Assembly (NCBI RefSeq): GCF_030867145.1
Contig: NC_134440.1
Coordinates: forward strand, 124,001-188,000
DNA: 64,000 bases
Reading direction: 5' to 3'
From: Opisthocomus hoazin
Lineage: Eukaryota; Chordata; Aves; Opisthocomiformes; Opisthocomidae
Made by a program: the position numbers and the translations under genes. The notes under the pieces were generated by a model. That model had not been told where the DNA came from, ran no database searches, and was given only the letters and a program-made list of their open reading frames with translations. Below, one piece after another: positions 1-62,327 of the stretch (position 1 is its first letter; each line of letters starts with the position of its first letter).

Positions 1-1034
1 AGCTTCTGCATGACGCTGGCTGCCAGCAGGCTGACCAGCACCTGCACCCCCATCACCGCCTGCGCCGGGGACACCCGCAGCGCTGGACCCCGGCACCTGA
101 CCTCCCAGAGCCGGGGACAAAGCGGGGATCCCCCCCACCCCCCACCCCAGCCTGCAGCGCCAGGGCTGTCTGCCTCCCCCAGCCCCTCACCCTGCTGTGG
201 GACACCCCGGGCATGCACCCCCCCCAGGCAGGCACCCCTGAGCGTGCACCCCTGGGGTGTGCAGCCCCCCAGACAGGCACCCTCCAGACGTGCAACCCCC
301 CAGCACAGCCTGGGTTTGCACCCCCCGGGCAGGCAGCCCCGAGCATGCAACCCCCGGCCATGCAGTCCCCCGAACAGGCACCCTCCAGCACAGCCTGGGC
401 TTGCACCCCCCAGGTCTGCACCCCCCCTGCTTCCCCAGACATGCACCTCCCCGAACAGGCACCCCCCAGCACAGCCTGGGAGCGCACCCCCTGGGCAGGC
501 ACCCCCGAGCGTGCACCCCCCGGTCATGCAGCCCCCCGAACAGGCTCTCTCTGGACGTGCAACCCCCCAGCACAGCCTGGGGATGCACCCCCCAGGTCTG
601 CGCCCCCCCAGCCAAGGCATGCACCCCAAGAATGCACCCCTGGGGTGTGCAGCCCCCCAAACAGGCACCCTCCGGATGTGCAACCCCCCAGCACAGCCTG
701 GGCTTGCACCCCCCAGGTCTGCGCCCCCCCTGCTTCCCCAGACATGCAACCCCAGGCAGGCACCTCCGAGCATGCACCCCCCCGGCCATGCAGCCCCCCG
801 AACAGGCACCCCCCAGCACAGCCTGGGGGTGCACCCCCCGGGTCTGCACACCCCCCCCCCCCCCCCCCCCGGCATGCACACCCCCAGCCCCCCCTCTCCC
901 CTGCATCTACCCCCCGGGCACGCACCCCGAGCCTGCACCCCCCCGGGACAGCCCGTGCACGCACCCTCCCAGACAGCCTGGCTGTGCACCCCCCGGGCAG
1001 ACCCCCGCCATCGCCCCCGTCCCCCGCTCACCAT
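1..1034 (-). CDS. TMEM161A: TMEM161A, 5' end (start codon exon plus partial exon 2)
   Basis: Multipass membrane protein of the TMEM161 family; only the N-terminus is inside the window. On the minus strand a first exon ends exactly at the start codon (ATG at 1034-1032), followed at once by a GTGAGC donor. The next exon begins after a CAG acceptor at 62-60 and covers 59-1, running off the window edge. Joined, it starts MAVMGVQVLVSLLAASVMQK, which I align to the human TMEM161A start (MAVLGVQ..LLTA..LMHRL): a short hydrophobic first membrane segment. The ATG-then-splice arrangement explains why no long open frame is visible. Intron 1 (60-1031) is mostly a GC-rich minisatellite. The gene points away from mir-9 and MEF2B, all on the same strand, as TMEM161B, mir-9-2 and MEF2C do in mammals. 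The identification rests on about 20 residues plus both splice sites and synteny. Confidence 0.9.
   Translation of the reverse strand, partial: MVSGGRGRWRGSARGVHSQAVWEGACTGCPGGVQARGACPGGRCRGEGGLGVCMPGGGGGGVCRPGGCTPRLCWGVPVRGAAWPGGCMLGGACLGLHVWGSRGGADLGGASPGCAGGLHIRRVPVWGAAHPRGAFLGCMPWLGGRRPGGCIPRLCWGVARPERACSGGCMTGGCTLGGACPGGALPGCAGGCLFGEVHVWGSRGGADLGGASPGCAGGCLFGGLHGRGLHARGCLPGGCKPRLCWGVARLEGACLGGCTPQGCTLRGACLGGVHARGVPQQGEGLGEADSPGAAGWGGGWGGSPLCPRLWEVRCRGPALRVSPAQAVMGVQVLVSLLAASVMQK
230..1000. repeat. Complex minisatellite in TMEM161A intron 1
   Basis: C-rich degenerate tandem repeat built from phrases such as CAGCACAGCCTGGG, which recurs at about 301, 386, 467, 569, 688 and 813 (spacing 81-125 bases), with intervening CCGAACAGGCACC and CATGCANCCCCC phrases. 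All six frames are partly open because stop codons are rare in such sequence; these frames are not genes. It contains a run of about 19 C near 850-870. Confidence 0.8.
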
Positions 1035-25231: not shown

Positions 25232-25690
25232 ACAGAATCACAGAATCCCAGCATGGTGGGGGTTGGCAGGGACCTCTGTGGGTCACCCAGCCCAACCCCC
25301 TGCCCAAGCAGCGTCACCTACAGTAGGCTGTAGAGGACCTTGTCCAGGCGGGGCTGGAATATCTCCAGAGAAGGAGACTCCACAGCCTCCCTGGGCAGCC
25401 TGGGCCAGGGCTCCGGCACCCTCAGAGGGAAGAAGTTCTTCCTCGGGTTCAGCTGGAGCTTCCTCTGCTTCAGTTTGTGCCTGTTGCCCCTTGTCCTGTC
25501 GCTGGGCACCACTGAACAGAGTCTGGCCCCATCCTCCTGACCCCCACCCTGCAGATATTTAAAGGCATTTCTAAGGTCCCCTCTCAGCCTTCTCTTCTCC
25601 AGGTTGAACAAGCCCAGCTCCCTCAGCCTCTCCTCGTAGGAGAGATGCTCCAGTCCCCTCCTCATCCTCGTAGCCCTGCGCTGGCTGGAG
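25232..25690 (-). mobile_element. CR1 LINE 3' fragment, longest copy
   Basis: Minus-strand CR1 copy of about 460 bp. Its 3' end (ATTCTGTGATTCTGT repeats on the minus strand) is at 25232; the 5' truncation is near 25690. The minus strand carries CR1 3' landmarks in order: CTCTCCTACGAGGAGAGGCT, AACCTGGAGAAGAGAAGGCT, GACAAGGGGCAACAGGCACA, GAAGAACTTCTTCCC, GACAAGGTCCTCTACAGCCT and GACCCACAGAGGTCCCTGCC. A partly open minus frame here is element sequence, not a host gene. Confidence 0.93.
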
Positions 25691-27889: not shown

Positions 27890-28030
27890 GGCTGCTTCCC
27901 TGTAATAGATTCAGTTGCTATGATACCAAGTTTGCTTTTAACGAACCCCAGAAAATTAATGGCATTCAGCAGATAAGTCCTTAAAGTGGAACCTATTTTA
28001 AGAAATTCTTGCTGAATGGTTTACATGTAG
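27890..28030. promoter_or_regulatory. AT-rich putative conserved element
   Basis: Balanced AT-rich non-repetitive stretch (GTAATAGATTCAGTTGCTAT, AAAATTAATGGCATTCAGCA, TTTTAAGAAATTCTTGCTG) about 2.4 kb downstream of mir-9 on the minus strand. Candidate conserved element or lncRNA exon; not tested. Confidence 0.3.
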
Positions 28031-29854
28031 TCAGGAGGGAGGAGACGGTTTCCCGAGCGCAGCAGAGCCTGCGCCGGTTCCCGCTGTGCTCCCGGCCGGG
28101 ATGTTGGGGTGCATGGTGGCACCATTTGGGGTACTCTTCAGCTTGGGACTGCGAGTGGCGAGGGCAGGGTTGCTGCCCAGCATCAGCTCCCCGCGCTGCG
28201 CACCGTGCATCCCTCCCGCTGCTGCACGGCTGCCGCTTCGCTTCCTCCCGGCTGTCCCCACGCGGCCTCGCCGCTGCCGAAACGCTTCTCCCACCCGCCA
28301 GCGGCTTCCTCTGCCGACGCTACGGAGGCGCGGGCAGGTCAGGGTGGGCAGCCCCTGCCCAAACCCTGCCCAAACCCATACACAAAGCTACAGGATTCGC
28401 GGCTGGTCCAGATCTTGGAGACCCTGAGATGGTCGAAGGGATGGCATGGAAACCCTGCTCCGACAAAAACCTGCCGTCCCTTGGAGGAGCTCAGAGCGAA
28501 CAAGCAAGGAGCCAGGGAAGGTTTTCCCCTTCCATCCAGCCCCGCAAGCGGAGCACAGAGGGGCATCGGCTATCGGACGGGGCACATTTCCCCGGGGACC
28601 CGCGTCTCCACCAAGCAGACGAACTGGTGCCGCCGGACGCCGCGGCAGCCCCGCGTTTTGCTGCAGCAAAAGCTCTCGCCCAGCTCGGCGCTGCCACGGC
28701 TGAAGAACCCGCGCTCCTCCCTGTCCCCAGGCCGCAGGTGGGGTGGCCCCATGGGGACCATCTCCTCTTTATCCCACAACATATTATGGGGTGTACGGGG
28801 GCTGTGTCTACTTTATTCTACATCCTATATAGGGCCCACTTCGTTCCCACCCAGAAAAAGGCCCAAATTGGGTGAGCCCAGAGTGTTTGAGCAGGCTGGG
28901 GGTGCAGGATCAGTGCCAGGGATCACAGAGATCCGGGACAAGGAACCTGCTCCCCCCACCTGAACACAGCAAGACCTGTGGAGAGGGAGGAAGGTGCCCC
29001 CCTGCCTCTCACACCCCAAATTCCTCCTCTGCTGCCGACTCCAGCAACACCGGGTGAAGGAGCAGGCACAACCCTGCGCAGAAGCCAGGGTGTGCAGGGC
29101 AGGGAGAGGCTGACGGAGCAAGAGATTGAGACACTGAGCTTTCAGTATCTGGAGCTGATGCTCTTCCCTTTCTCATTTCTCAGCACCAACCCAGCCAGGG
29201 AACTGATGCATCGAAGAATTGAGCAGTGTGGCGGGGGTGGATGAGTCCCGGTGCCACCATCCCGCTCAGGGTGCTGAGCCCCTCGCACTGTGCCTGCACC
29301 CCATGGGAGAGCGGCTGGTGGTCCGGCACGGGCAGGGCCTGATCCTGCAGTGGTTTAAGCACCTGGGTCCATCTGCGGAGCCTCCCGGCTGACCACCACC
29401 ACCCGCTCCAAGCTGCGTCCCGAAACACGCGCCTGAACACACTGCTCCCCGCTTCCCTGAGCTCCCAGGAATTACTGGGGAGCGCTCAGCCTTCAGGGTC
29501 CCCACTCACAGCCTCTCCCCTCTCCCAGCATCAGCGTTCTGGGCTGGATCCTCTGCCTGCGCGGCCCCTGGGCAGCCGGGGCTCAGCCCCCCATCCCTTG
29601 CACCGCCAGTCTCCCCGGGCGCCGCGGGGACCGAGAGGAGCCGGAGGAAGCGGGAGGGAAGGAGAGAGCTGGCTGCACACAACACCCCGATCCACCGGCA
29701 GCGAAGCAGGAGTCCGGGGGGGGACCGGGAGAGACCGGGGAGGGGGAGGCTGAGACCGGAGGAGCATAGGCACCCTCGGAGTGATGCTCCCAAATCCCCC
29801 TCTCCGAAGAACAAAGCTGCAGTCTCTCTGCAGATGCCGAATAACCGACGAGCG
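28031..29854. other. Region downstream of mir-9, no protein gene seen
   Basis: Open frames here overlap on both strands without domain content. On the minus strand this lies 3' of the mir-9 hairpin, so part of it may belong to the host transcript; I cannot define exons. Confidence 0.35.
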
Positions 29855-30115
29855 ACGATGATTTATTTCTCTTCCCCAGTAGACGAAGTAGCCTCGGAAA
29901 CGGGTTTGCGCTAAATTACAATTTGCATGCGGTAATATATTTAAGCAACTTTCCTTCTACTTCGTTATAAACAGGGTTTCTCGAGGGGTTATTTCTGAGC
30001 TGGCCCCATTTAATTTATCTCCGGCACACCCGGCGCAAGCAAGCTTAATTGTCGACGTGGAAATTAAAACCACAGTGGAAAAAAAAAAAATAAAATAAAT
30101 AAAATGAAGGTACTG
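29855..30115. promoter_or_regulatory. AT-rich island flanking mir-9
   Basis: About 260 bases of AT-rich, non-repetitive sequence (ATGATTTATTTCTCTTCC, CTAAATTACAATTTGCATGC with an ATTTGCAT octamer, GGTAATATATTTAAGCAAC, CATTTAATTTATCTCC, AAGCTTAATTGTCGACG) followed by an A12 run. It lies 250 bases downstream of the miRNA hairpin on the minus strand. Best candidate in the window for a conserved element within the mir-9 transcription unit. Confidence 0.4.
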
Positions 30116-30365
30116 GTTTGTAGGTAGCCCAAGGAACCCCAGGTTGGAATCCAAATAATCACCCAGGCGTAGGCACTCGCTCTGGGCCTCCATAAAAATG
30201 ATGGAAGAGAAAACCCCACCGATATTTCCACTCCACAGCCGCGCCTGGCTTTCAGCCGCTCTCCCCCTTGCCAAGGTGCTGGGGCCAGTGCCCTGGGGAG
30301 GCCGGTGGCCACCGAGCCCCTCTCCTGCCGGGAGGGCAGGGCTCTTCCCCCGGAGAACAGCGAGC

Positions 30366-30441
30366 GGGTTTTTACATTCGGTTCTCTAGCTTTATGATAT
30401 CACATACACTCATACAGCTAGATAACCAAAGAGAAAAACCC
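30366..30441 (-). ncRNA. mir-9: mir-9 microRNA precursor
   Basis: On the minus strand the sequence folds as a classic pre-mir-9 hairpin. The 5p arm (30432-30410) is identical over all 23 bases to miR-9-5p, with seed CUUUGGU and core UAUCUAGCUGUAUGA. The loop is 14 bases (30409-30396). The 3p arm (30395-30374) matches miR-9-3p except at positions 12 (U to G) and 20 (A to U). The basal stem continues with GGGUUUUU (30441-30434) paired to AAAAACCC on the opposite arm (plus-strand GGGTTTTT at 30366-30373), giving a precursor of about 76 nt. miR-9 is a neural microRNA acting in progenitor proliferation and neurogenesis; known targets include REST, TLX and HES1 transcripts. It sits between TMEM161A and MEF2B, all on the minus strand, mirroring TMEM161B / mir-9-2 / MEF2C. 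The copy looks functional because the mature arm and pairing are intact. Confidence 0.97.
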
Positions 30442-31576
30442 ACCCATGTCTTTACAAAACGGGCCTTGACCGTGCCGCGCGCCCTGGGGTTGTCGTGCCC
30501 CGACGTCGGAGCCCCCCGGGACAGCCGCCATCTGCGTCCCCTCGCCGCCAAAACTGAAGAAACCCCCTCGGTTTCGGTAGGAGAGCGGGAATCTGCCCCG
30601 GCACCTTGGGATGCGACGCACAACGCCGGCGCTCCCCAAAACCCACCCGAACGCTGTGACCCGATGTCCGCACCCCAAAGGGGACCCGCGCCCTAAAGCG
30701 GGCTCAGCCCCACGCAGCCCCCCGTGGCCTGGGAGCCACGGCAGGGCAGAATGCTCCCTCAGGATCCCTCCCCACCGCCCACGGCCCAGGGACCTGCCTC
30801 CTTTCCAGCCCCAAATTCATCCCCAGACCCACCCCGGAGCCCGCTCCCACTTTATAATTGCTGGAAATTACTGGCACGGATCTGCTGAGTCATGAGAGCG
30901 GTTGGGGAAGGGACGGGCCCAGCCGAAAAGGGCCCCCCCGGGGGTTTCCACCGCGCCCCGGCTCTGCTCTGCTCTCCTCTTCCTCCTCTTCCTCCCGTAC
31001 CCGCTCCCTGCAGCCGGGCCCGCATCCCCGGGACAGACCCCGCGTATCCTGGGGCTCCGGGCCGCGAATCCCTTTGCCCACGGGGACCCCGAACCCCAGG
31101 TGGGTCGCGGCGCGGGGTGCACCCGGGGGCTCCGGCCATGCGGCTGCTCGGAGGGGAGCTCGGCAGAGCGGTTGTCCCCGGCTCAGTGGAGGACGGGGGG
31201 GACGGGGGGAAGACGGGATGGGTCCTGGGGAAGGGTCCCGGGGAGGGAAGGGTCCCGGGGGAGGGGTACCTGCTCACCCCGCTGGGTCCGGTGGCTGCCG
31301 CGGTCGCCGTCGGCTCCGGTCGCCGCATCCTTCCAGGCTGGCGGGGTGGGGCGGGAAGGCTCGACCCGGGCCGGAGGCTGGATCCCCTCGCCCGGTGCCG
31401 GTGCGGGTCCCGCTCCCGCTGCCCCGGTGCCTGCGGGACCTGCCTCTAAAGTTGAGGCAGAGCCGGCGGCAGAGGGCTGGCGGGAGGGCGGGGGAGGGCG
31501 GGGGGAGGGACGGGCGGCCGGCGGGGACAAAGCCCGAGCGGCGGGGCCTGGGACAGCCCGGGCGTGGGGCCGGGGC

Positions 31577-31620
31577 AGGGGTCACACCCCCCCCCCCCCC
31601 CCCATCTCGGGGGGGGGAGC
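31577..31620. repeat. C-run / G-run pair
   Basis: A run of about 18 C is followed, after ATCTC, by a G9 run, so the two can pair into a hairpin or form quadruplex and i-motif structures. Confidence 0.7.
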
Positions 31621-32969
31621 GCCATTCGCCACAGCCGCCGCGGTCCCCGGGGGCTGGCCCGTCTGCTCGCCCCGGGCCCCCCCGCCCCAGACCCAGCCTC
31701 CCGCAGCAGCCAGGCCCGCCCCGTCGGGGAGGCGGCGGTGCCCCGGGGGGTAACCCCGCTCGAGCAGGGCTGTGGCGGAGCCGCACTACCCCCCCCGGCA
31801 AAGCCTGGGGTTAAACCCGACGTGCCGAGCGGGGAAGCGGCGGGGGCGACCGGACCCTCCCGTCGATGCCGCGCTCACAGGCCCCGCTGGCAAAGGGGAA
31901 TCGCGGCTCCTCAGGAGTAAAACCAGGCTCGACTCCTCCGCCCCGTCCCGGGCGGTAACAGGGGTCCCCCCGACGGGTCCGACATCGGCTCTGCCCCCCT
32001 GACCGGGGAGGGACCCCCCCCGGGCCCGGGACAAAGCGGGGGCCGCGGCTCGGAGGGGCGGCGGGGCAGAGCCCGGGCGAGGGGCCGAGGTCCCGGCTCC
32101 ACGTCCCCCCCGTGCGGCCGCCAGGGGCCGGTCCCGGCCGGGTCCCGCCCCGGTGCAGGGGACCCCGCTCCGCTCTCCCGGGGACGGCGGGGCAGCCCCG
32201 GCCAGTGGCGGGGGGGCAGCGGCCTTTCCCCGGCACCCCCGGCCGCCTCACGCAGGGAGACCACCGGCGGGGCGCAGCTGCGACTCCCGTGGTGCTCGCA
32301 CCCACCCAGGGGTGCCCCGGCCGGGGGCACGGTGCCCCCCCCACCCCACCCCCCCCGGTGCACACCCCGGAGCGCTCACACCCCTGCACGCACACCGACG
32401 GTCACGCTCGTCCCGACGCAGGCGCGGCCCCGCACACCCCCCGGTGCACACCCACGCACACACCCACGCGGGACACCCTGGCCTTCTCCGTGGCCCCCCC
32501 TCCCCCAGCCTTACCCCCCCGGCCCGGAGGGCTCCCGGGGCCGCCTCGTCGCCCCTCGCTCCGGGGGTGAACCGGCGGAAAACGGAACCCAACGGCCCCG
32601 GGCAGCCCCGGGCGGGCTCCGCTTCCAGCGGGGACCGGGAGCGGCGGGGCCCGTGCTGCTCTCACAGCGTGCGGGTGTTTCGGGGAGGAGGCACGGAGCC
32701 GTCCCGACCCCCCCTCCCCACACCCACGCTTCTACAGCTAAAATCTACCCGACCTCCGTGCTCGGAGGGGCCCGGAGCGGAGCGCGGCGGCTCCTGCGGA
32801 GATGCCAACCCGCAAACACCGGAGGGATTCCCCGGGAGCAGCGGGGCTTTGTGCCCCGCACCGAGAACCGCGCCCCCCGGCATGGCGGAAGCCCTGGGCG
32901 GGAGCCCCGTCGGCGGGCGCGGAGGGGGGGGGGGGGGGTGTCGCTCCCGCCCGCACCGGGCCCGGCCCC

Positions 32970-32990
32970 GCCGCTCTCCGTGGTGCTGAA
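32970..32990 (-). promoter_or_regulatory. RE1/NRSE (REST-binding) site
   Basis: The minus strand begins TTCAGCACCACGGAGAG, matching every position of the 17-base NRSE consensus NTYAGMRCCNNRGMSAG. Over 21 bases it matches the canonical RE1 at 19 positions. It lies 2.5 kb upstream of the mir-9 hairpin on the hairpin strand, inside the CpG domain. REST represses neuronal genes, and miR-9 family loci are known REST-circuit members, so the site fits the locus. Confidence 0.75.
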
Positions 32991-33055
32991 CCGCCGCAGC
33001 GCACCGGGGCCGGCCGGGATCGCGTCTCCTCCGCCCTCCTCCCTCCGAGCCGCCA

Positions 33056-33100
33056 CTAATTAATTATTAAGACCTCTATTAATTATTATCGTTATCATTC
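33056..33100. promoter_or_regulatory. Homeodomain-type direct repeat beside the RE1 site
   Basis: The 11-mer ATTAATTATTA occurs at 33059-33069 and again at 33078-33088, 19 bases apart, within a 45-bp AT island in otherwise GC-rich CpG sequence, 70-120 bases from the RE1 site. TAATTA is the core of many homeodomain sites. Confidence 0.45.
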
Positions 33101-36100
33101 CTGCCTTTCCCGCCGCTCCGGTGCACCGCAAACCGTTCCGAGCGGGAAGGCGGTACCGGCGAGGCAGCCGGTTGCCGCGTTAACGGATCGTCCACTCGCA
33201 AGCCGCCCGGTGCCTGCCGCCCGCACTCCCCTCCTCGGGTCCGCACCAAATCCCTCTCCCGCCCGGCCCCGGCGCGGTCGGCCCCGCTGCCGTCCGCACC
33301 GCCCGGGGCACCGCCGGTCCCGGCCCCGTTCCGCCGCCCCGGTGGGTTCCGCGGACACGCGTGGGGCTGCCGCCCTTCTCGTTTCGGGGATGCCGAACCG
33401 CTCCTTCCCCGGGCGGGCCCGGCCGCCGTACTTCGCCGAAGGGTAAAATAACCCCGACAACGACCGCGGCCCCGAAGCTCCGCCGAGGGAACGAACGGGA
33501 CCGGCGGGACTTCGCCGCCGCCCCGGGAGCACCCCCGGGCCCGGGCCCGGCTCGGGGAAGGGTCGCTTCGGGCACCGGCGGGGCCCCGGGCGCAGCATCG
33601 GCTCCGGCCCCGCTCCCCTGCCGCTCGCGGGCCCGGTAACGGCAGTGCAGGGCCCGGGCGGGCCGCAGCGGCCCGGTTCGCCCACGCCTGTCGCCAGTCC
33701 CCGCTCTCCACGGCTCCCCGCGCCCGAGGGGTCGCGGGGGGTGGGAGTGGGGGGCTCGGCAGCTCCGAACCAGGAAGGGTGGCCGCCCCACGCGTGTCCG
33801 CGGCGGCGGATCCAAGGGGGCCCGCCCGGCCCGTTCCTCCCCGGCACTTACCGGGTCGTCGCCCGCCGGTACCCCGCTCCCCGGCGGCTGCGGGGACTGG
33901 CCCCGGCGCCCCTCGTCCCCCGTTATTCCCCCTCTCCCACACCCCCGCGTGAATCAAATACCTTCACTACAGCAGCCATGTTGGGCTCCGGTGCGAGCAC
34001 GGCGCTCGCCGCAGGAGCCGCGGCCGCCACGGCGGGAGGCAGAGCGGGCGGGCTCGGCTCCGGGCGGCGCGAGGACCCCCACATCCCACCCGAGAACCGG
34101 AGCCCGGGCAGCGGGGGGAGCCGCCGGCCCCCCTCCTCCCACGGCACCGAGGGATGCCGCGGTGAGCCGCTCCCCGCCAGCCCGGCAACTTCCCACCGTT
34201 ATCGGTAACGCCGCCAACTGCTGGTCCCGCACCTGCCCCGCATCCCTCCGGTAAAACAGGTCGCATCCCGGGGCTGCCTTTGGAAAAGAGGAGGGGGAGG
34301 GGCACGGTTACCTCCGCCTGGCCCGGTGTGCCGATCCCCCGTGGAGCCGCTCGGCCGAGCCCACCTGGGGAGGGAAATAGAAAGAAGAGGCGTCAGGAGG
34401 AGCCGCCGCCATCGCTCCAACTTGGAGCAACTTTCCCGGCGAGGCTGGCAGCGCGGGAGGGGGTGTGGGCGGCGTTGGAGCCCCTGCCCGGTCACCCGGG
34501 ACCAGTCCCACCGGCGGGCAGGGAGGGGGATACCCCAAAATCCGTCCCTTCCACCCGTGGAGCGGGGACACCCACCCGGAGCCCCGGCCCTGCCCGGGAG
34601 GGGCCAAGACGGGACACGGCCTCTGCTGCCGGGGAAATACAGGAGACCCCTCGGAGGGGCAGCCCCACACCCTCTGTCTGTCTGTCTGCCTTTACCGGGC
34701 GGCCCAGCTCCCCCGCGCCGCGGGCACCGGAGCATCGCACCGGGCACCGGAGCCTCTCGCCCGCCCGGCCCGGAGCCCCTCGAAAGCCGATTTTTCAGCT
34801 GTGTTATTTTTTGTTTCTTTATTTTTTCCCCCTCCCACCGAGAATTTTTTTTTTCCCCCTTTTTCTTTTCCCGCCCCATTCCCCCCCCCCTCCCCCCCCC
34901 CCCCCCAGTTTGATCCCAGCGCTGTCGCTGGGAATTCTTTGCATTTAAAACGCAACGACTCGTTCCCCCGCGCATCGCTTCGCAGCTCGGGTCAAGCAGC
35001 ACCGCCAGCGGGGGGGACCGATCCGGGGAAAAGCGGTCCCCAAACCCCCCGGCAAAATCCACCCGAATTCCTGCCTGGCTGGAAATATCGATGCGGCCGA
35101 AAACGAAAGAATTAACAGATTTTACTGATTTTTCTTTCTGCAGCCGCTGTCACCCAAAGGTGTTCTGGCAACAAAGAGCGGGAGAGGATTTGACACCCGT
35201 ATTTTGGCCCGTTCCCGTGCAGAAATCTTCCCCCAAAGCCCCGAAATCTTTGCAGAGATTGATCTCTAAAAAAAACAACCATCCCCTGCCTTGCGAAGCG
35301 CTTCGAAAGAAAACCTGGGTTTCTATTTGTTCCCCGCCGTCGCTGCTAAGCCCGTCGGGGGTCACACACGCGGCACCCGCCGAAACTAACGGCGAAGAGG
35401 GGGGACTGGGAATCCAACCACCGCCTCCCCGGTAAAAACTGGGGGGCAAACGGTTTCCCCCCCGCGCACGGAGGAAATTTCCCCGCTCGGGAAACAACGG
35501 TGTGGAAATCCCGGCCGTGCCCGCTGGCTCCGGCACGGCAAACAACGCCCGTTACTTTTTTAGGGGGGGAGAAAAAACAATAAAACAAGATAATTTTTTT
35601 TTAATTTCTCCAGAAATGGCGAATTCGTCCCCGGCCTTTTGCATGGCGAAGAATTTTTCTTTTTTCCCTGCTGTGTTTTTTCTTTGCGGCCGGGATACAG
35701 CCCGGCACCGACACGGGGCTGCGAAGGAGCGGTGGGGGGGACGCCCACAAAACCCACCTCCCCAGCCCCAGCAACCCCCAAATCCCCGCATCCCTATTCC
35801 CCTATTTTTTTCCCCCCAAACCTCCCCCACCAAATAGCTCCACACCCCAAACTCGGCTCCGGCAGCCCCTTACCTCGGGCGCCGGGCAGGGCAGGGCGGG
35901 CGGTCCGACCGGCCCGGGGCTCTAAACCCCGGGGGTGGCTTTTGTGAGTTTGGCGGAGTTTTCCCGGGCTGTCCCTTTTGTGTCCCATTGCCATCTAGAG
36001 GCCTTGATTAATTAATTTCACACGGCGGAGCTCGGGAGAGAAAATTTTCCACAAAAAAAAAACAAGTGGCCGAGGAGATGTGAAACCCCAAAGAAAAGGA

Positions 36101-37701
36101 GTCAACATCAAGTTCAACAGCATGCGGGGGGAAAAGGCCGATTTCCATCACAATCGAGTCTGAGCGGGGGCCGGGCGGGGGGGGGCCGGGTGTGGGGAGG
36201 GGGGGGGGGGCGGCGGCCCCCGCGCCCCCCTCCGCGCGTTCCCAGGCTCGGAACAATCGCGCTCTGTTTGCCTCGCACTTGCCGGCGTTTGGGGCACGGA
36301 GGCTGCCTTGGGATAACAGGGATAATGAGGGGGGGGGGCTGGGGGGGGGGTTGGGGGGAGTGATGGAGGGTTGGGAGATGCGGGGCGGGGGGGGAGCGGA
36401 GGAGCGAGCACCCGGGGACTGGCCGATACCGACCTGTTGAGCCCCGGTCGGGAGCACTCGGTGGAGTTGGCGGAGGGAGTCGGGATGGGCGAGAGGGGAA
36501 CGGCGGGGGCTCGGCAGGGCGGGGGGGTCCCCAAAGCCGGGAGGGGACGGAGCCGGCCCCGGGGGGGGGGGGGGGTAGAAGCACTGGGGGGGACACACGA
36601 CACACTGACTTTTCCCCAAGTTTTGTGACACAGACCCCCCCCCCCCCAAAGCGTTTTCCCACAGCCCCGGGGGAACGGGGGGTCCCTGCCCCGGGGAGCG
36701 GGTGGTGCCTGCCCCGGGGGGAGGGTGGGGGGGGGGCGGGGGCGGGGGGGCCCGGGGGTGGCCGAGGCGGTGGTGGACGTGTCCTGCAACCCAAGCAGCT
36801 CGGCCTCCGCCGGGCATTGTCCCCACGGAGCCGTGGCCATTGTTCCCGGCGCTGCGGGAAGCCGGAGGGAGGGCAGCTTTCCACGCCTCGGCCCCCCCCC
36901 CCCAACCCCCCCCCACACCCCAACACTCACACCGGGCGGCCGGACCCGCAGCCCCTAATCCGGGTATGGGGAGGGGGGGAGGTAAAGGCAAAAAAAACCC
37001 ACCCCGTCCATCCCTCCCCCCCCCAAAAAAAAAGGTCCGGGTGGGGGAGTCGTGGGGTCCCCCCTCGCAGACTTCCTCCAAGTTGGGAGGAGCGGGGGGG
37101 GGGGGAGCGGGGCGGCTGCCAGTGCCCGCACAGCGCGGCCCCTCCGGCGGCAGCTCCTCGCATCTCCCCGCATCTCCCCCGGCCCGGGGAGTTCAGTGCG
37201 GGGCAGGGAGAGGGGAAAAACAGCGACAAAAAGAAAAATAAAAAGGGGGGGGGAGTTGGGGGGGGGGGGGCTGTTAATTACCTCCCTCCGCACATCTGCA
37301 TCCGTTAATGACTTAGCGACAGCGGGAGCCGCCGGGACAGCGGCAGCCTCCGGGGCGGGGGGGCCGCGGAGCCCGGTGCCATCCAGCCGAGGCGAGGTGG
37401 CGGGGGGGGGGGGGGGCTGCAGGAGCAGCTGGAAGAGGAGCCCCCCACCCCCCCGCCGCCATCACGTCGCCTTTTACGTGGGTTAAACAGATAACGTCTG
37501 CCCGGGGCTTCAACGCCGGGACCCCCCCCACCGGCCCGGGCAGCCCCGACCCGAGGCCGCCGGGCCCTCGGGGAGGGGGGGGGGGCCGGATTCTTCCCCA
37601 ACATCCATTTTCTCCCTTTTGGAAATGGAGATGGGAGAGAGGAGGGAAAAATGCCTTTTTTTTTTTTTTTTTAACCCCCCCCCCGCCTTGCTTTCTCCAT
37701 A

Positions 37702-41461: not shown

Positions 41462-41467
41462 TTTATT
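41462..41467 (-). other. MEF2B: Candidate MEF2B polyadenylation signal
   Basis: AATAAA on the minus strand, about 650 bases past the MEF2B stop codon (42116-42114). It would give a 3' UTR of about 670 bases that includes the 39-bp inverted repeat. A nearby downstream CA and GT-rich stretch is compatible with cleavage near 41445. Confidence 0.55.
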
Positions 41468-42113: not shown

Positions 42114-45100
42114 CTATCTCTGCCAAGCGTCCATGGCCTGCGCTCGCTGTGCGGGGATGGGACCCCGCTGCTCCTCTGCCAGCGGCCGGGGGGGTCCCAG
42201 GGGGTAGGGGTACCCCTTGGCGTAGTCGTCCCGTGGTTGGAGGTCTCCCGGGCCTCGGGAGGCTTCGCTCAGGGAGCCCAGGCTGGCCAAGGGGGGCTGG
42301 GGGGTGCCCGAGGGGCAGCCCAGCCCTGGGGAGACCCGTTCCGACTTGATGCTGATGGCTTGGTGCTGCGGGGAGGTGCCGGGAGCCGGGGCTGGCTCTT
42401 CGGTGGGGACGATCCGGCTGCTGACCCTGGGGTGAGAGAGGAGGAGGAGGAGTGAGGCCAGGTCTCCCTGCATCCCCTCCGAGGTGCACAGGGTGAGGAG
42501 AGACCAAGCTCACCCCGCCTCTGCTCTCTAGAGGGGCTGAGACCCCCCAAACTCATCTCACATATCAGCTCAGACCCAGCCAGGCACAGGGCAGCTACCC
42601 ACCCAGCTGCTGGGAGCCTGGTGTGTGACTGGGGGGGACACGGGGACCAGGCCGCCTGGGGAAATCTGGTTGGAAATAGGGGGGGGGGGGGGGTGTCCTG
42701 GGGTGACCCCGTGTGCTTCGGTTTTGGGGTGAAGTCGGACAGACCCCAGCACAGCAGGTGGGGGGGCTGCGCCTCGGGTGCCGGCAGCACCCATGGCTGG
42801 GAGGTGGCACCCATGGGTGCAGCAGCTCCCCACGAACCCCAATCCATGCCCACCACCCCGTCCCCCACCCTCTGACCATCCCCATCCTCACCCCAGTGCT
42901 GCCATGTCCCGGGGGTGCTGCCACGCCGGGGGGCCGGGCTGCAGGAAGCCGGGGGGCTGCGGGGTCTCGCCAGCCCCGAACTCTGCCGAGCAGGAGGCCG
43001 AGAGTGAGCAGGAGCCGGGGGGGGGGCTGCAGCTGGGGGGGGTCCGTGCTGTCCCGGGGCCGAGGGGCCAGGACTTACCCGCTTGGGCCGGGGCGAGGAA
43101 GGGGAAGCCGGCGAGGCCGTGGCTCGGGACGCCGGAGCTGCCCGGGGCGAGCACTGGGCTCAGGGTCTGCAGAGCGGGGTACAGCGGCCGCTGCGGGAAA
43201 TCAGGGTGCCCCCCGGTCAGGCTTCAACTGCTGACTCCCCCCTTGGGGACCCATGATGCAGCATCTCCCCCTGCCCCTTCCTGTGCCCCCCAGCAAAGCC
43301 CTGCTGTGGGGCTGAGGAAGAGGAGGTGGGAGCGGATCGGAGCAGCTTCTCGCCGAATTTAGGGAAGGGACGTCTGCGTGGCCCCGGGGACCCCGGGCAT
43401 GGTGACTTGCTGGGAAATGCCTGGCTGCATCGAGCTGGGGGGGATGACACCCCCCTCACCGCCTGCCCTGCTGCCCCCCTCCGTGGTGTCACTGCTGGGG
43501 ACGGGGTGTCCAAGGCCACCGAGCATCCTGCTGGCACTGACCCACAGCAGAACCCCACAGCTGGGGGGGCCCAATGCCCTCCCTGGGCACCAGGGACACG
43601 CAGAGCCAGCCCACCCTGAGGGGGTTACAGATTTGGGGGTCTTTGTCTGGCACACAGGGGACACATCCCAGCGATGGGGCCATATTTGGGCTGGTCCCCC
43701 CACAGTAGCACTGTCCCCACGTCCCAGCCCAGACGCTGCTGAGCTGGTGTCACTCACCGCCGCGCTGCCACCGCTCCGGCTGCTCGCCACGCTGCCGTGG
43801 GCTTCGCCACGCCGGCCCTCGGCCCCCAGGTACAGCGGCGGGGGGGTCTTGGTGGCCAGGGCTCGGTTCAGGCTGCCGGCGGGGAAGAGGGGGTAGCCGA
43901 TACCTGGACGGACAGAGGGACGGGGGGATGCATGGAGTGACCCTGAGGGATGCGGGGTGCCGGGGGCTCCGATCCTCGGGGGGATCCGCGTGGCTGCGGC
44001 CGCTGGTCCCGGTGCCCTCGTCGCCGCGGGCGGCCGCATGTGCGTGCGCGGTGCCGTGCTCCGGCAAACCCACTTCCTGCGCGAGGACGTCGGCACACCT
44101 GGGCCACGGCCATGGTGTGCGAAGGCGGTGGCTGGATCCGGCCCGGGGGGCCAGCAGGCAGCAGACCTCCCCGGCCGGACCCCCGCTGCGGGGAGCACCC
44201 TCAGCCCGGCTCCCCACAGAGCGTCCGGGACGTCCAGTGTGCCTGGGGCCACCACGCCATCCCCATCCCGGGAGATGGGGATGCCGCACGCCCGCAGCCT
44301 GCACCAGGAATCTCACCCAGCTGCCCCTCTGCCACCACCCACCCACCCGGGGGGGGTTTCCGCTGATCAAGCCCCAGCATCATTTTTTGCAGCCGCTTTT
44401 CCACTGCGTGGTCCCGGAGGCACCCATGTTCCCACCACCACCCCAGGCCGGTGCAGGACGAGCCCCTCGCACCAGCTCCGAGCTGTGCCGCCGAGGAGCG
44501 AGCCGTGGGCGCGGGGTGCCTGAGGTGCCGCGGCCAGCCGGGTGCCGGGTGCCGGGAAGGCGCAGGATGCAGCTGGAGGGAGGCAGGGGACGGTTTTTCC
44601 ACAGCTGCAGAGGTGCTACCTGCCCACGCACTCACCCCGGCCCTGCTCCCGGCGAGCCCCCGGGACACGCAGCGAGAGGAGCTTTGCATGCGGTCGGGGA
44701 AATCCCTGCAGGGCCAGCGAGGACGCAGTGCCCATCGCAGGGACCCCGCAGCCGGCTCCCCGCAGCCCCCTGGGCGACGGGTCCGAGCCTACCTGGGGGC
44801 AGCAGTCCCGGCGAGCGTCCCGGTGGCTTCGGCGCTGCCGGCTTGAAGGTGGGCGAGCGGCCGTGGCCCTGAGGCGAGCCGCTGGTGCTGCCCAGGGACG
44901 CGTCGGTGGCTGGCGGGGAGCTGCCATAGGCTGCGTCGGGCAGCGGCGCCGAGCTCTGCGGGGCCAAGCGGAGGTGAGGGATGGGGAGGGGACAGGGACC
45001 CTCGGGGACCTTCCTTCGCCCCCCGTGCCACGGGACGGCAGCGACTCACGTAAAACCTGGGCCGTGCCACCGAGAGGTCCATCCCCTCGCTCAGCCTTCG

Positions 45101-45696
45101 TGCCTTCTCCCCAGGATCTGGCCCCTCGTCCAGCTCCAGCTCGTGGCTCTCCAGCCCCAGCCCCTTGCGCTTCAGCGTCTGCGGGGAGCAGGGCGGGTGA
45201 GCGGGGTCCCGTGTGTCCCCCCGAGGTCCCCCCCGGCCACCCCCCGCCGCTACCTCGAGGATGTCGGAGTTGGTGCGGCTCTCATGGGGCTCGCTGTACT
45301 CCGTGTACTTGAGCAGCACCCTGTCCATGTCGGTGCTGGCGTACTGGAAGAGGCGGTTGGTGCTGTTGAAGATGATGAGGGCGATCTCGCAGTCGCACAG
45401 GACGCTCAGCTCGTACGCCTTCTTCATCAGCCCGAATTTCCGCTTGGTGAAGGTCACCTGCGGAGCGGGGAAGGGGACGGGATGCTGCACCCAGGACCCC
45501 TGGATACAGCCCCAAACCTCCTCCTGGGTCCCCCAGCTCCCCTCCGGATCCGACACCCGTGGGGTAGGTGGGAGCGGAGCAGCTTTGCCTCCCTTCTCGG
45601 CCTTGTGGCTCCCTGTCCCCCTCGTCCCCGCGCGGCTCCTACCTGCCGGTTCCGTTGATCCAGTATTCGGCTGATCTGTATTTTTTTCCGGCCCAT
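42114..45696 (-). CDS. MEF2B: MEF2B, MADS-box transcription factor, complete coding region
   Basis: Nuclear MEF2-family activator. Coding exons (minus): 45696-45643, 45457-45254, 45178-45050, 44955-44793, 43903-43758, 43190-43079, 42982-42892, 42426-42114. All introns are GT-AG with matching phases (0,0,0,1,0,1,2), giving 403 residues and a TAG stop. The MADS box (1-57) starts [18 protein letters not shown] and the MEF2 domain ends near residue 86 ([10 protein letters not shown]). [24 protein letters not shown] distinguishes MEF2B-like from plain MADS proteins. C-terminal MEF2B marks are [16 protein letters not shown] and [16 protein letters not shown] at 326-333 fits the phospho-dependent sumoylation motif. 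Human MEF2B is slightly shorter (about 365). The coding exon carries 26 bases of 5' UTR after an acceptor (exon starts 45722), so a non-coding first exon must lie upstream. Identification is firm; exon 7 rests on phase and splice sites. Confidence 0.96.
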
Positions 45697-47679: not shown

Positions 47680-48582
47680 CAGGGGTGCCAGCAGCCACGG
47701 GGTGATGCTGTGGGGATCCTGGAGGGTAAAGGCACCCATGGGGTAATGCTGTGGGGGTCCCAGGGGGTACCAGCACCCACCAGGTGATGCTGTGGGGGTC
47801 CTGGAGGGTAAAGGCACCTATGGGGTGATGCTGCGGGGTTCCCAGGGGGTTACTGGCACCCATGAGGTGATGCTGTGGGGGTCCTGGGGGATACCAACAC
47901 CCACAAGGTGATGCTGTGGGGGTCCTGGAGGGCAAAGGCACCCATGGGGTGATGCTGCAGGGGTCTTGGTGGGTACTGACACCCATGAGGTGATGCTGTA
48001 GGTGTCCCGGGGGGTACCAGCACCCATGCAGTGATGCTGCGGGGTCCTGGGGTGTACCGGCACCCCTGGGGTGATGCTGTGGGGGTCTTGGTGGGTACCG
48101 GCACCCATGAGGTGATGCTGTAGGGGTCCTGGGGGGTACCGGCACCCATGTGGTGATAATGTGGGGGTCTTCGTGGGTACTGACACCCACGAGGTGATGC
48201 TGCGGGGGTCCTGGGGTGTACTGGCACCCATGAGGTGATGCTGTGGGGGTCCTGGGGGTTACTGGCACCCATGAGATGACGCTGTGGAGGTCCCAGGGGG
48301 TACCAGCACCCACAAGGTGATGCTGTGGGGGTCCTGGAGGGCAAAGGCTCCCATGGGGTGATGCTGCGGGAGTCTTGGTGGGTACTGACACCCATGAGGT
48401 GACGCTGTAGGGGTCCCGGGGGGTACCGGCACCCATGTGGTGATAATACGGATGTCCTGGGGGGTACTGGCACCCATGGGGTGATGCTGTGGGGGTCTTC
48501 GTGGGTACCGACACTCATGAGGTGATGCTGTGGGGGTCCCAGGGGGTACCAGTACCCCTGGGGTGATGCTGCAGGGGCCCCA
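47680..48582. repeat. 41-bp minisatellite array, orientation A
   Basis: About 22 tandem copies of a 41-bp unit; on the plus strand each copy contains GGTGATGCTGTGGGGGTCCT followed by GGNGGGTA and GGCACCCA. Copies differ by a few bases each. 41 is not a multiple of 3, so the long minus-strand open frame cycles through three frames of the unit (SITPWVP, GCQYPP, PRTPTASPHG) and is not a gene. There are no spacers, so it is not a CRISPR array. Confidence 0.93.
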
Positions 48583-49749
48583 GCCCAGAATAGCAGGCGC
48601 GGTGGGAGGCAAGAGGAAGCAGCAGCTGCAGCACCGTCGGGCCAGGGGAGCTGGGGACCCGCCATGGCCGGGCTCACGGCTCACTCGCCGTGGGCTGGGC
48701 ACGGAGTGGCTCGTCCCCGCGCCGGAGAAACCGTCTGAGGCCTCGTGCAACACGCGGGGCGGTTTCATCAGCCGCCTCCCCACGCAGCTCATTACGGCTC
48801 CGCTCCTCCTGGGACATCGCCTCGGCCGCTCGGCCACCGCGGCCATGTGGGACCCGTGGGGACACGCACAGCCCCGGCCGGGCCACCGCTGCCACCAGCA
48901 CCGTGCCACGTGCCGGGGTCTCGCCGGACGGGTGCAGGGTTGGGTCTGGCCGCGGGGCAGGGGAGCGATGCTCTCCAGGAGCGGGGTACACGGCGTTTTG
49001 GCTTGCTGCCTCCACGGGTCCCCGTGCCTCGGCCACCGCAGTGCGGCAGGGGACGGGCGCTCGGTCCCCCCCGGGCAGGCATTAAGGGCTGGGAGGGGAG
49101 GGGGGGGACTTTCACTGCAGATTTTAATTGCAGTGCCGGGCGATAAGGCGATAAGCAGCATTACGGCTGCAAGGCGATTATCGCAGCCGATGGTGACGGG
49201 CACAACGGGGCGGCTCGGCACCTCCATCCCGCATCCTCCAGCCTCGGGGACAGCATCGAGCGAGCAGCCTGGCTCCTGTAGGGAGAGGGCGAGGGCTGGG
49301 GACCCCCGAGCAGTAGTGAGCCGGGGTTGGGGTGCCCCACAACCTCTAATTGCGTTAATCTCCACCGGGTCCCACCTCGCGCAAACCCCTCGTTAGCATG
49401 GCTGCGACGGGGACCCGCGACATGGTCCGGCTGCAGCATCCTCCAGCATCGTTATTACCAACGAGGCCACCAAAACCCGGCGCCAACCAAGCTTTGCAGC
49501 CCTCCAAAGCTTTCAGCGAGGAGATGCTTTCCCCTCCCTGCGCTGGGCAGAGGCCCTTGCGCTGCCTGGCATCGCGCCGGCCTCCGCTCCCTCCCACATG
49601 CGCTTATCTTTAGCCCTGGCTCTCTGCTCGCTCGCACGCACTGGGCTCGCCTCCACGCCCAGGCACAGCCCCTCGTCCCCACCGTCCCTTCGCCAGCGCG
49701 GTCTCAACCCGACCCCCCGGGCTGCAACGAGCTTTATAATTAACTCCCC
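48583..49749. other. Unique spacer between the inverted minisatellite arrays
   Basis: About 1.17 kb of GC-rich unique sequence without a supported gene. 49141-49185 carries three GATA-type sites close together: GATAAGG (49142), GATAAGC (49150) and, reversed, TTATCGC (49178). Confidence 0.4.
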
Positions 49750-50382
49750 GGACCCCCACAGCATCACCCTATGGGTGCTGGTACCCTCCAGGACCCCCAC
49801 AGCATCACCTTGTGGGTGCTGGTACCCCCTGGGAACCCCACAGCATCACCCCATGGGTGCTTTTACCCTCCAGGATCCCCACAGCATCACCTTGTCAGTG
49901 CTGGTACCCCCTGGGACCCCCACAGCATCACCCCATGGGTGCTTTTACCCCCCGGGACCCCCACAGCATCACCCCAAAGGTGCTTTTACCCTCCAGGACC
50001 CCCACAGCATCACCTTGTGGGTGCTAGTAACCCCTGGGAACCCCACAGCATCACCCCATGGGTGCTTTTACCCTCCAGGACCCCCACAGCATCACCTTGT
50101 GGGTGCTGGTACCCCCTGGGAACCCCACAGCATCACCTGGTGGGTGCTGGCACCCCCCGGGACCCCCACAGCATCACCCCATGGGTGCCTTTACCCTCCA
50201 GGACCCCCACAGCATCACCTGGTGGGTGCTGGTACCCCCCGGGACCCCCACAGCATCACCCCATGGGTGCCTTTACCCTCCAGGACCCCCACAGCATCAC
50301 CTGGTGGGTGCTGGTACCCCCCGGGACCCCCACAGCATCACCCCATGGGTGCCTTTACCCTCTAGGACCCCCACAGCATCAC
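49750..50382. repeat. 41-bp minisatellite array, orientation B (inverted)
   Basis: About 15 copies of the reverse complement of the unit in 47680-48582; the plus strand here reads ACCCCCACAGCATCACC with GTGCCTTTACCCTCCAGG or GTGCTGGTACCCCC. Toward the right end the copies alternate in a near-identical 82-bp two-unit pattern (from about 50159 onward), indicating recent homogenisation. Confidence 0.93.

Positions 50383-57610: not shown

Positions 57611-62327
<4,717 letters not shown>

Follow-up and report, generated by a model that had tools for sequence, protein, structure and literature searches.

A mir-9 gene flanked by TMEM161A and MEF2B in Opisthocomus hoazin, a probable bird orthologue of vertebrate mir-9-4/miR-9b

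Main finding

The stretch of Opisthocomus hoazin DNA analysed here (the window; 64,000 nucleotides, G000:C27:124001-188000) contained a complete mir-9 hairpin on the minus strand, located between TMEM161A and MEF2B. It is very probable (roughly 0.9) that this hairpin is the bird orthologue of vertebrate mir-9-4/miR-9b, the copy that the early vertebrate genome duplications placed on the MEF2B/TMEM161A paralogon. Its mode of action is most likely that of the other mir-9 genes. Its sequence is best read as that of an extra source of miR-9-5p, which would be accompanied by a distinguishable 3p strand. The locus is a mapped case of a known class and not a new kind of locus.

Structure and sequence of the hairpin

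The hairpin and its two arms were placed as follows.

30366..30441, minus strand: pre-mir-9 hairpin, probably of the mir-9-4/miR-9b class (RF00237, 75.8 bits over the full model, 1-78; fold z −7.8)
30410..30432, minus strand: miR-9-5p, identical to canonical miR-9 (exact 23-mer, 23/23 bases)
30374..30395, minus strand: miR-9-3p variant that has the bases of lumpfish miR-9b-3p at positions 12 (G) and 20 (U)

The entire 64-kb window was scanned with Rfam on both strands at the gathering thresholds. Within it, mir-9 (RF00237) was the sole family above the curated thresholds, with two matches, both at 30366-30441. The minus strand scored 75.8 bits (E 4.1e-13) against a cut-off of 58.6 bits, and the plus strand, which reads this near-symmetric hairpin in reverse complement, scored 59.7 bits. 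An intact mir-9 hairpin had been predicted from the sequence, and its coordinates, strand and letters were as claimed. Folding, which the original prediction had proposed as a check, gave a minimum free energy of −41.9 kcal/mol for the hairpin with its flanks, compared with a mean of −18.85 for shuffled sequences (z −7.8), and none of the 200 shuffles folded as low. The locus showed three features expected of an RF00237 member: a score above the cut-off, a stable fold whose stem contains both arms, and miR-9-5p with its seed.

The predicted identity of the 5p arm with miR-9-5p was exact (UCUUUGGUUAUCUAGCUGUAUGA). The two substitutions predicted for the 3p arm (AUAAAGCUAGAGAACCGAAUGU) were both seen relative to the canonical strand, U to G at position 12 and A to U at position 20; the canonical strand was found unaltered in the other two mir-9 copies of this genome. 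The seeds of both arms were unaltered. Due to a mismatch opposite the altered 3p position 12, the miR-9 duplex was weaker in the window copy (−18.4 kcal/mol) than in the other copies (−22.9 kcal/mol). A UG at −14/−13 was present in the window copy only, among the mir-9 copies of the genome, and therefore counts for little. Open reading frames across the hairpin were judged ordinary for GC-rich DNA.

A weaker duplex would be expected if the locus were a silent relic, a mir-9 copy retained by chance after its transcription had ended. Against this, the 5p arm was perfect over 23 bases, the 3p arm equalled a strand that is expressed in one fish and the lower stem was retained and still paired. Together, these three features point to long purifying selection, and we regard a silent relic as highly improbable.

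Gene neighbourhood

The genes on either side of the hairpin and a CpG-rich stretch at the hairpin were delimited as follows.

1..53, minus strand: first coding exon of TMEM161A, leaving the window at its left end (start codon at 53)
42114..45696, minus strand: MEF2B, eight coding exons encoding 403 aa (introns with GT donors and AG acceptors; polyadenylation signal, placed by eye, at about 41462-41467)
30251..36500, no strand assigned: CpG-rich stretch whose left end holds the hairpin (GC 0.70, CpG observed/expected 0.84)

TMEM161A was located with a human protein query. With tblastn, this query had no significant match in the 64-kb window alone, which suggested that TMEM161A was not a neighbour. 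That suggestion was ruled out after 60 kb to the left were added: the gene was found directly left of the window on the minus strand, its later exons within 3.7 kb of the window edge and no coding exon but the first within the window.

The exon ends of MEF2B were placed by hand. For the fifth acceptor, five positions were tried, two of which kept the frame open, and 43903 (after CCAG) was chosen. In a comparison of the MADS stretch with solved structures, MEF2B was the best match (141.2 bits, versus 139.3 bits for MEF2C). The predicted protein was nearest to bird MEF2B among the relatives listed, with 94% identity to that of Phalacrocorax aristotelis; the best 120 of 7,946 passing relatives comprised 118 with bird names, one with a turtle name and one without a name.

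The hairpin, TMEM161A and MEF2B were all on the minus strand. The hairpin was 11 kb downstream of MEF2B, and 30 kb separated it from the start codon of TMEM161A. The original prediction had placed the hairpin between these two genes, and the start codon of TMEM161A at 53 and the coding exons of MEF2B at 45696-42114 bore this out. The region was also GC-rich as predicted (GC 0.62-0.77 over 28001-36000, taken in four steps of 2 kb). Half of the window's 500-base steps had a CpG ratio >0.6, so the CpG-rich stretch at 30251-36500 was conspicuous by its length more than by its ratio. We consider it a candidate promoter, from which a primary transcript of the minus strand could start.

A BORCS8 query had no convincing match in the window, and the exons of this gene were located 1.6-7.6 kb past the right end, on the minus strand. 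A TMEM221-like exon was found between MEF2B and BORCS8, which departs from the mammalian gene order.

A misassembled scaffold had been named beforehand as an outcome that would overturn the prediction, and no sign of one was seen: the copy was located 154 kb into a contig of 10.36 Mb, flanked by TMEM161A and an intact MEF2B. That an assembly error placed the hairpin beside MEF2B would be in keeping with the GC-rich region and its tandem repeats, and with the position of the TMEM221-like exon relative to the mammalian order. Yet the sequence of the locus was its own, unlike that of the other two copies, the window was free of N, and TMEM161A, MEF2B and BORCS8 followed in one order on one strand of this long contig. 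Such an error is thus extremely unlikely.

Copies of mir-9 in the genome

A search of the genome (1.48 Gb, 415 contigs) with RF00237 returned six matches, all full-length, which corresponded to at least three loci, each matched on both strands; this count is a lower bound because 64 of 202,739 candidates were scored. The exact 23-mer of miR-9-5p was present at three sites genome-wide, the same three loci, and a control with the reversed pattern had none (chance expectation about 4e-5 at equal base frequencies). The exact search would not find copies whose 5p arm is altered or that lie outside the assembled sequence.

The three copies were compared with the human mir-9-1, mir-9-2 and mir-9-3 hairpins by pairwise identity. 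The copy on contig C40 (C40:42799168-42799243) was 98% identical to human mir-9-2 and, judged by its sequence, is mir-9-2. The copy on contig C10 was 83% identical to mir-9-3, 81% to mir-9-1 and 79% to mir-9-2, a narrow margin. The identities of the window copy were 74%, 78% and 69% to mir-9-1, mir-9-2 and mir-9-3, respectively. By these comparisons the window copy would be excluded as mir-9-2, and its exclusion as mir-9-1 or mir-9-3 would be on weak margins. The 3p substitutions were found in the window copy only, of the three, so the 3p arm distinguishes this locus from the other two, as predicted. Over about 110 bases on each side of the copies, no clear similarity was found outside the hairpin.

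A genome search with the MADS exon of the window gave five matches from six scored candidates (the window and contigs C10, C41, C167 and C191). By their sequences, we take the C10 exon to be MEF2A and the C41 and C167 exons to be MEF2C. The MEF2A-type exon on C10 was 4.7 Mb from the mir-9 copy on that contig. The MEF2C-type exon on C41 (C41:1287865-1288074) and the mir-9-2-like copy on C40 were on separate contigs; consequently, the mouse-like arrangement of mir-9-2 and MEF2C was not seen in this bird. MEF2C tail exons were not found in the 3-kb L001 locus or in the 60 kb examined to its right (C40:42810001-42870000, beginning 9 kb farther on). The matches on C167, a contig of 30.7 kb with a MEF2C-type exon, and on C191 were of equal score. 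These placements may stem from difficulties in assembling sex chromosomes or haplotigs.

Vertebrate mir-9-1 is the MEF2D-linked copy. The window gene could accordingly be a mir-9-1 that moved beside MEF2B, or a recent extra duplicate, rather than a fourth duplication copy. In keeping with this, no separate mir-9-1 was found among the three exact 5p sites, and none of the four MEF2 exons read (window, C41, C10 and C167) was of the MEF2D type. However, the window copy was less similar to human mir-9-1 (74%) than to mir-9-2 (78%), its 3p substitutions are shared with the miR-9b of one fish and its site is between TMEM161A and MEF2B; the lack of clear likeness beyond the hairpin argues against a recent duplicate. 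We therefore consider a moved mir-9-1 or a recent duplicate very unlikely, and prefer orthology with mir-9-4/miR-9b. With no fourth exact 5p site and no MEF2D-type exon among those read, the MEF2D region may be absent from the assembly or may have been lost.

Relation to known mir-9 genes

According to a review (Coolen 2013), mir-9 genes multiplied in vertebrates in parallel with the genome duplications, and the class miR-9-4/miR-9b was lost in eutherians. The predicted absence of this copy from mammals agrees with that account as far as eutherians are concerned. The original prediction had also presented the locus as a surprise, a view that did not hold: the copy fits the published class, and both of its 3p substitutions are present in lumpfish miR-9b-3p. 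As a member of a known vertebrate class, the window copy is a useful annotation.

The lumpfish strand clu-miR-9b-3p (TAAAGCTAGAGAACCGAATGTA) was reported from small-RNA sequencing, and all 22 of its bases are contained in the 3p arm of the window copy; this is a match to a mature strand of one fish species and not to a mapped locus. RT-qPCR gave significantly higher levels of lumpfish miR-9b-3p in brain; by sequencing, its rise in brain did not reach significance. In sea bass, miR-9-4-3p is given as a separate product that was raised in ovary and was not noted in brain. The flounder precursor pol-mir-9 has the position-12 change in common with the window 3p arm, and not that at position 20. 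Within the literature searched, long strings of the variant 3p sequence occurred in lumpfish only, and shorter strings also in flounder, there as miR-9. With canonical 5p and the lumpfish miR-9b-3p sequence over 22 bases, the window copy resembles the mir-9-4/miR-9b class. It differs in being seen in a bird, with mapped neighbours. The assignment to the class combines the miR-9b-type 3p strand, which is shared with one fish species, and the position on the MEF2B paralogon, which was seen in this genome only.

In mouse, the noncoding locus Visc lies between Mef2c and Tmem161b, and one of the exons of Visc-1 contains the mir-9-2 precursor (PMC4585502). Because mouse mir-9-2 has this position, the arrangement TMEM161A-mir-9-MEF2B looks like the genome-duplication counterpart of the mir-9-2 locus. 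The order of TMEM161 family gene, mir-9 and MEF2 family gene is the same in both, and the window copy differs in its loop, its two 3p substitutions and its paralogon. The flanking genes of the two loci are paralogous members of the same families, a sign of whole-genome duplication, and the window copy would have originated in this way. The locus thus adds one more mir-9 adjoining a MEF2 gene, as genome duplication predicts. The position of mir-9 between TMEM161A and MEF2B is known from one genome.

MirGeneDB names a Mir-9-P4, a name that was not found in the literature searched. The same literature was not found to name mir-9-4 alongside MEF2B or TMEM161A, nor to describe the bird locus; most subscription journals and all microRNA databases were outside this search. 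In a 2018 chick study, two bird mir-9 genes were counted from miRBase 21, and gga-mir-9-1 was described as close to zebrafish mir-9-4. Chicken mir-9 in that study has the same mature 5p strand as the window copy. The count of two suggests that bird annotation may be incomplete, and the window gene may be gga-mir-9-1 or may be unannotated.

Proposed function

As the orthologue of mir-9-4/miR-9b, the window copy would be transcribed from the minus strand, its primary transcript perhaps starting in the upstream CpG-rich stretch. Cuts by Drosha and then Dicer would yield canonical miR-9-5p as the main strand and the variant 3p strand, with its seed unchanged, as a minor product. The gene could in this manner raise the amount of miR-9 available to neural progenitors and neurons. 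The known role of miR-9 is unaltered by this copy. It is possible, though we think it rather doubtful, that the locus is an active, separately regulated bird source of miR-9 missed by annotations, and that the variant 3p strand is a distinct regulator which predates the fish-tetrapod split and was lost in eutherians.

With this locus, a mir-9 class whose loss has been reported for eutherians has a mapped position in a bird. Since the variant 3p strand separates reads of this gene from those of the two other copies, copy-specific use of miR-9 in the bird brain is testable with small-RNA data.

Other features of the window

A minus-strand reading frame at 25321-25653 was without a Pfam match; it resembled the terminal part of a CR1-type LINE protein, of a kind that birds commonly carry. 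Two long arrays of 41-base tandem repeats were present at 47682-48571 and 49746-50382, and their consensus units, compared by eye, looked like mutual reverse complements. A plus-strand reading frame at 61779-62291 matched the Pfam family Jiraiya (PF15038) with 45 bits over residues 9-60, and we assume that it is probably TMEM221.
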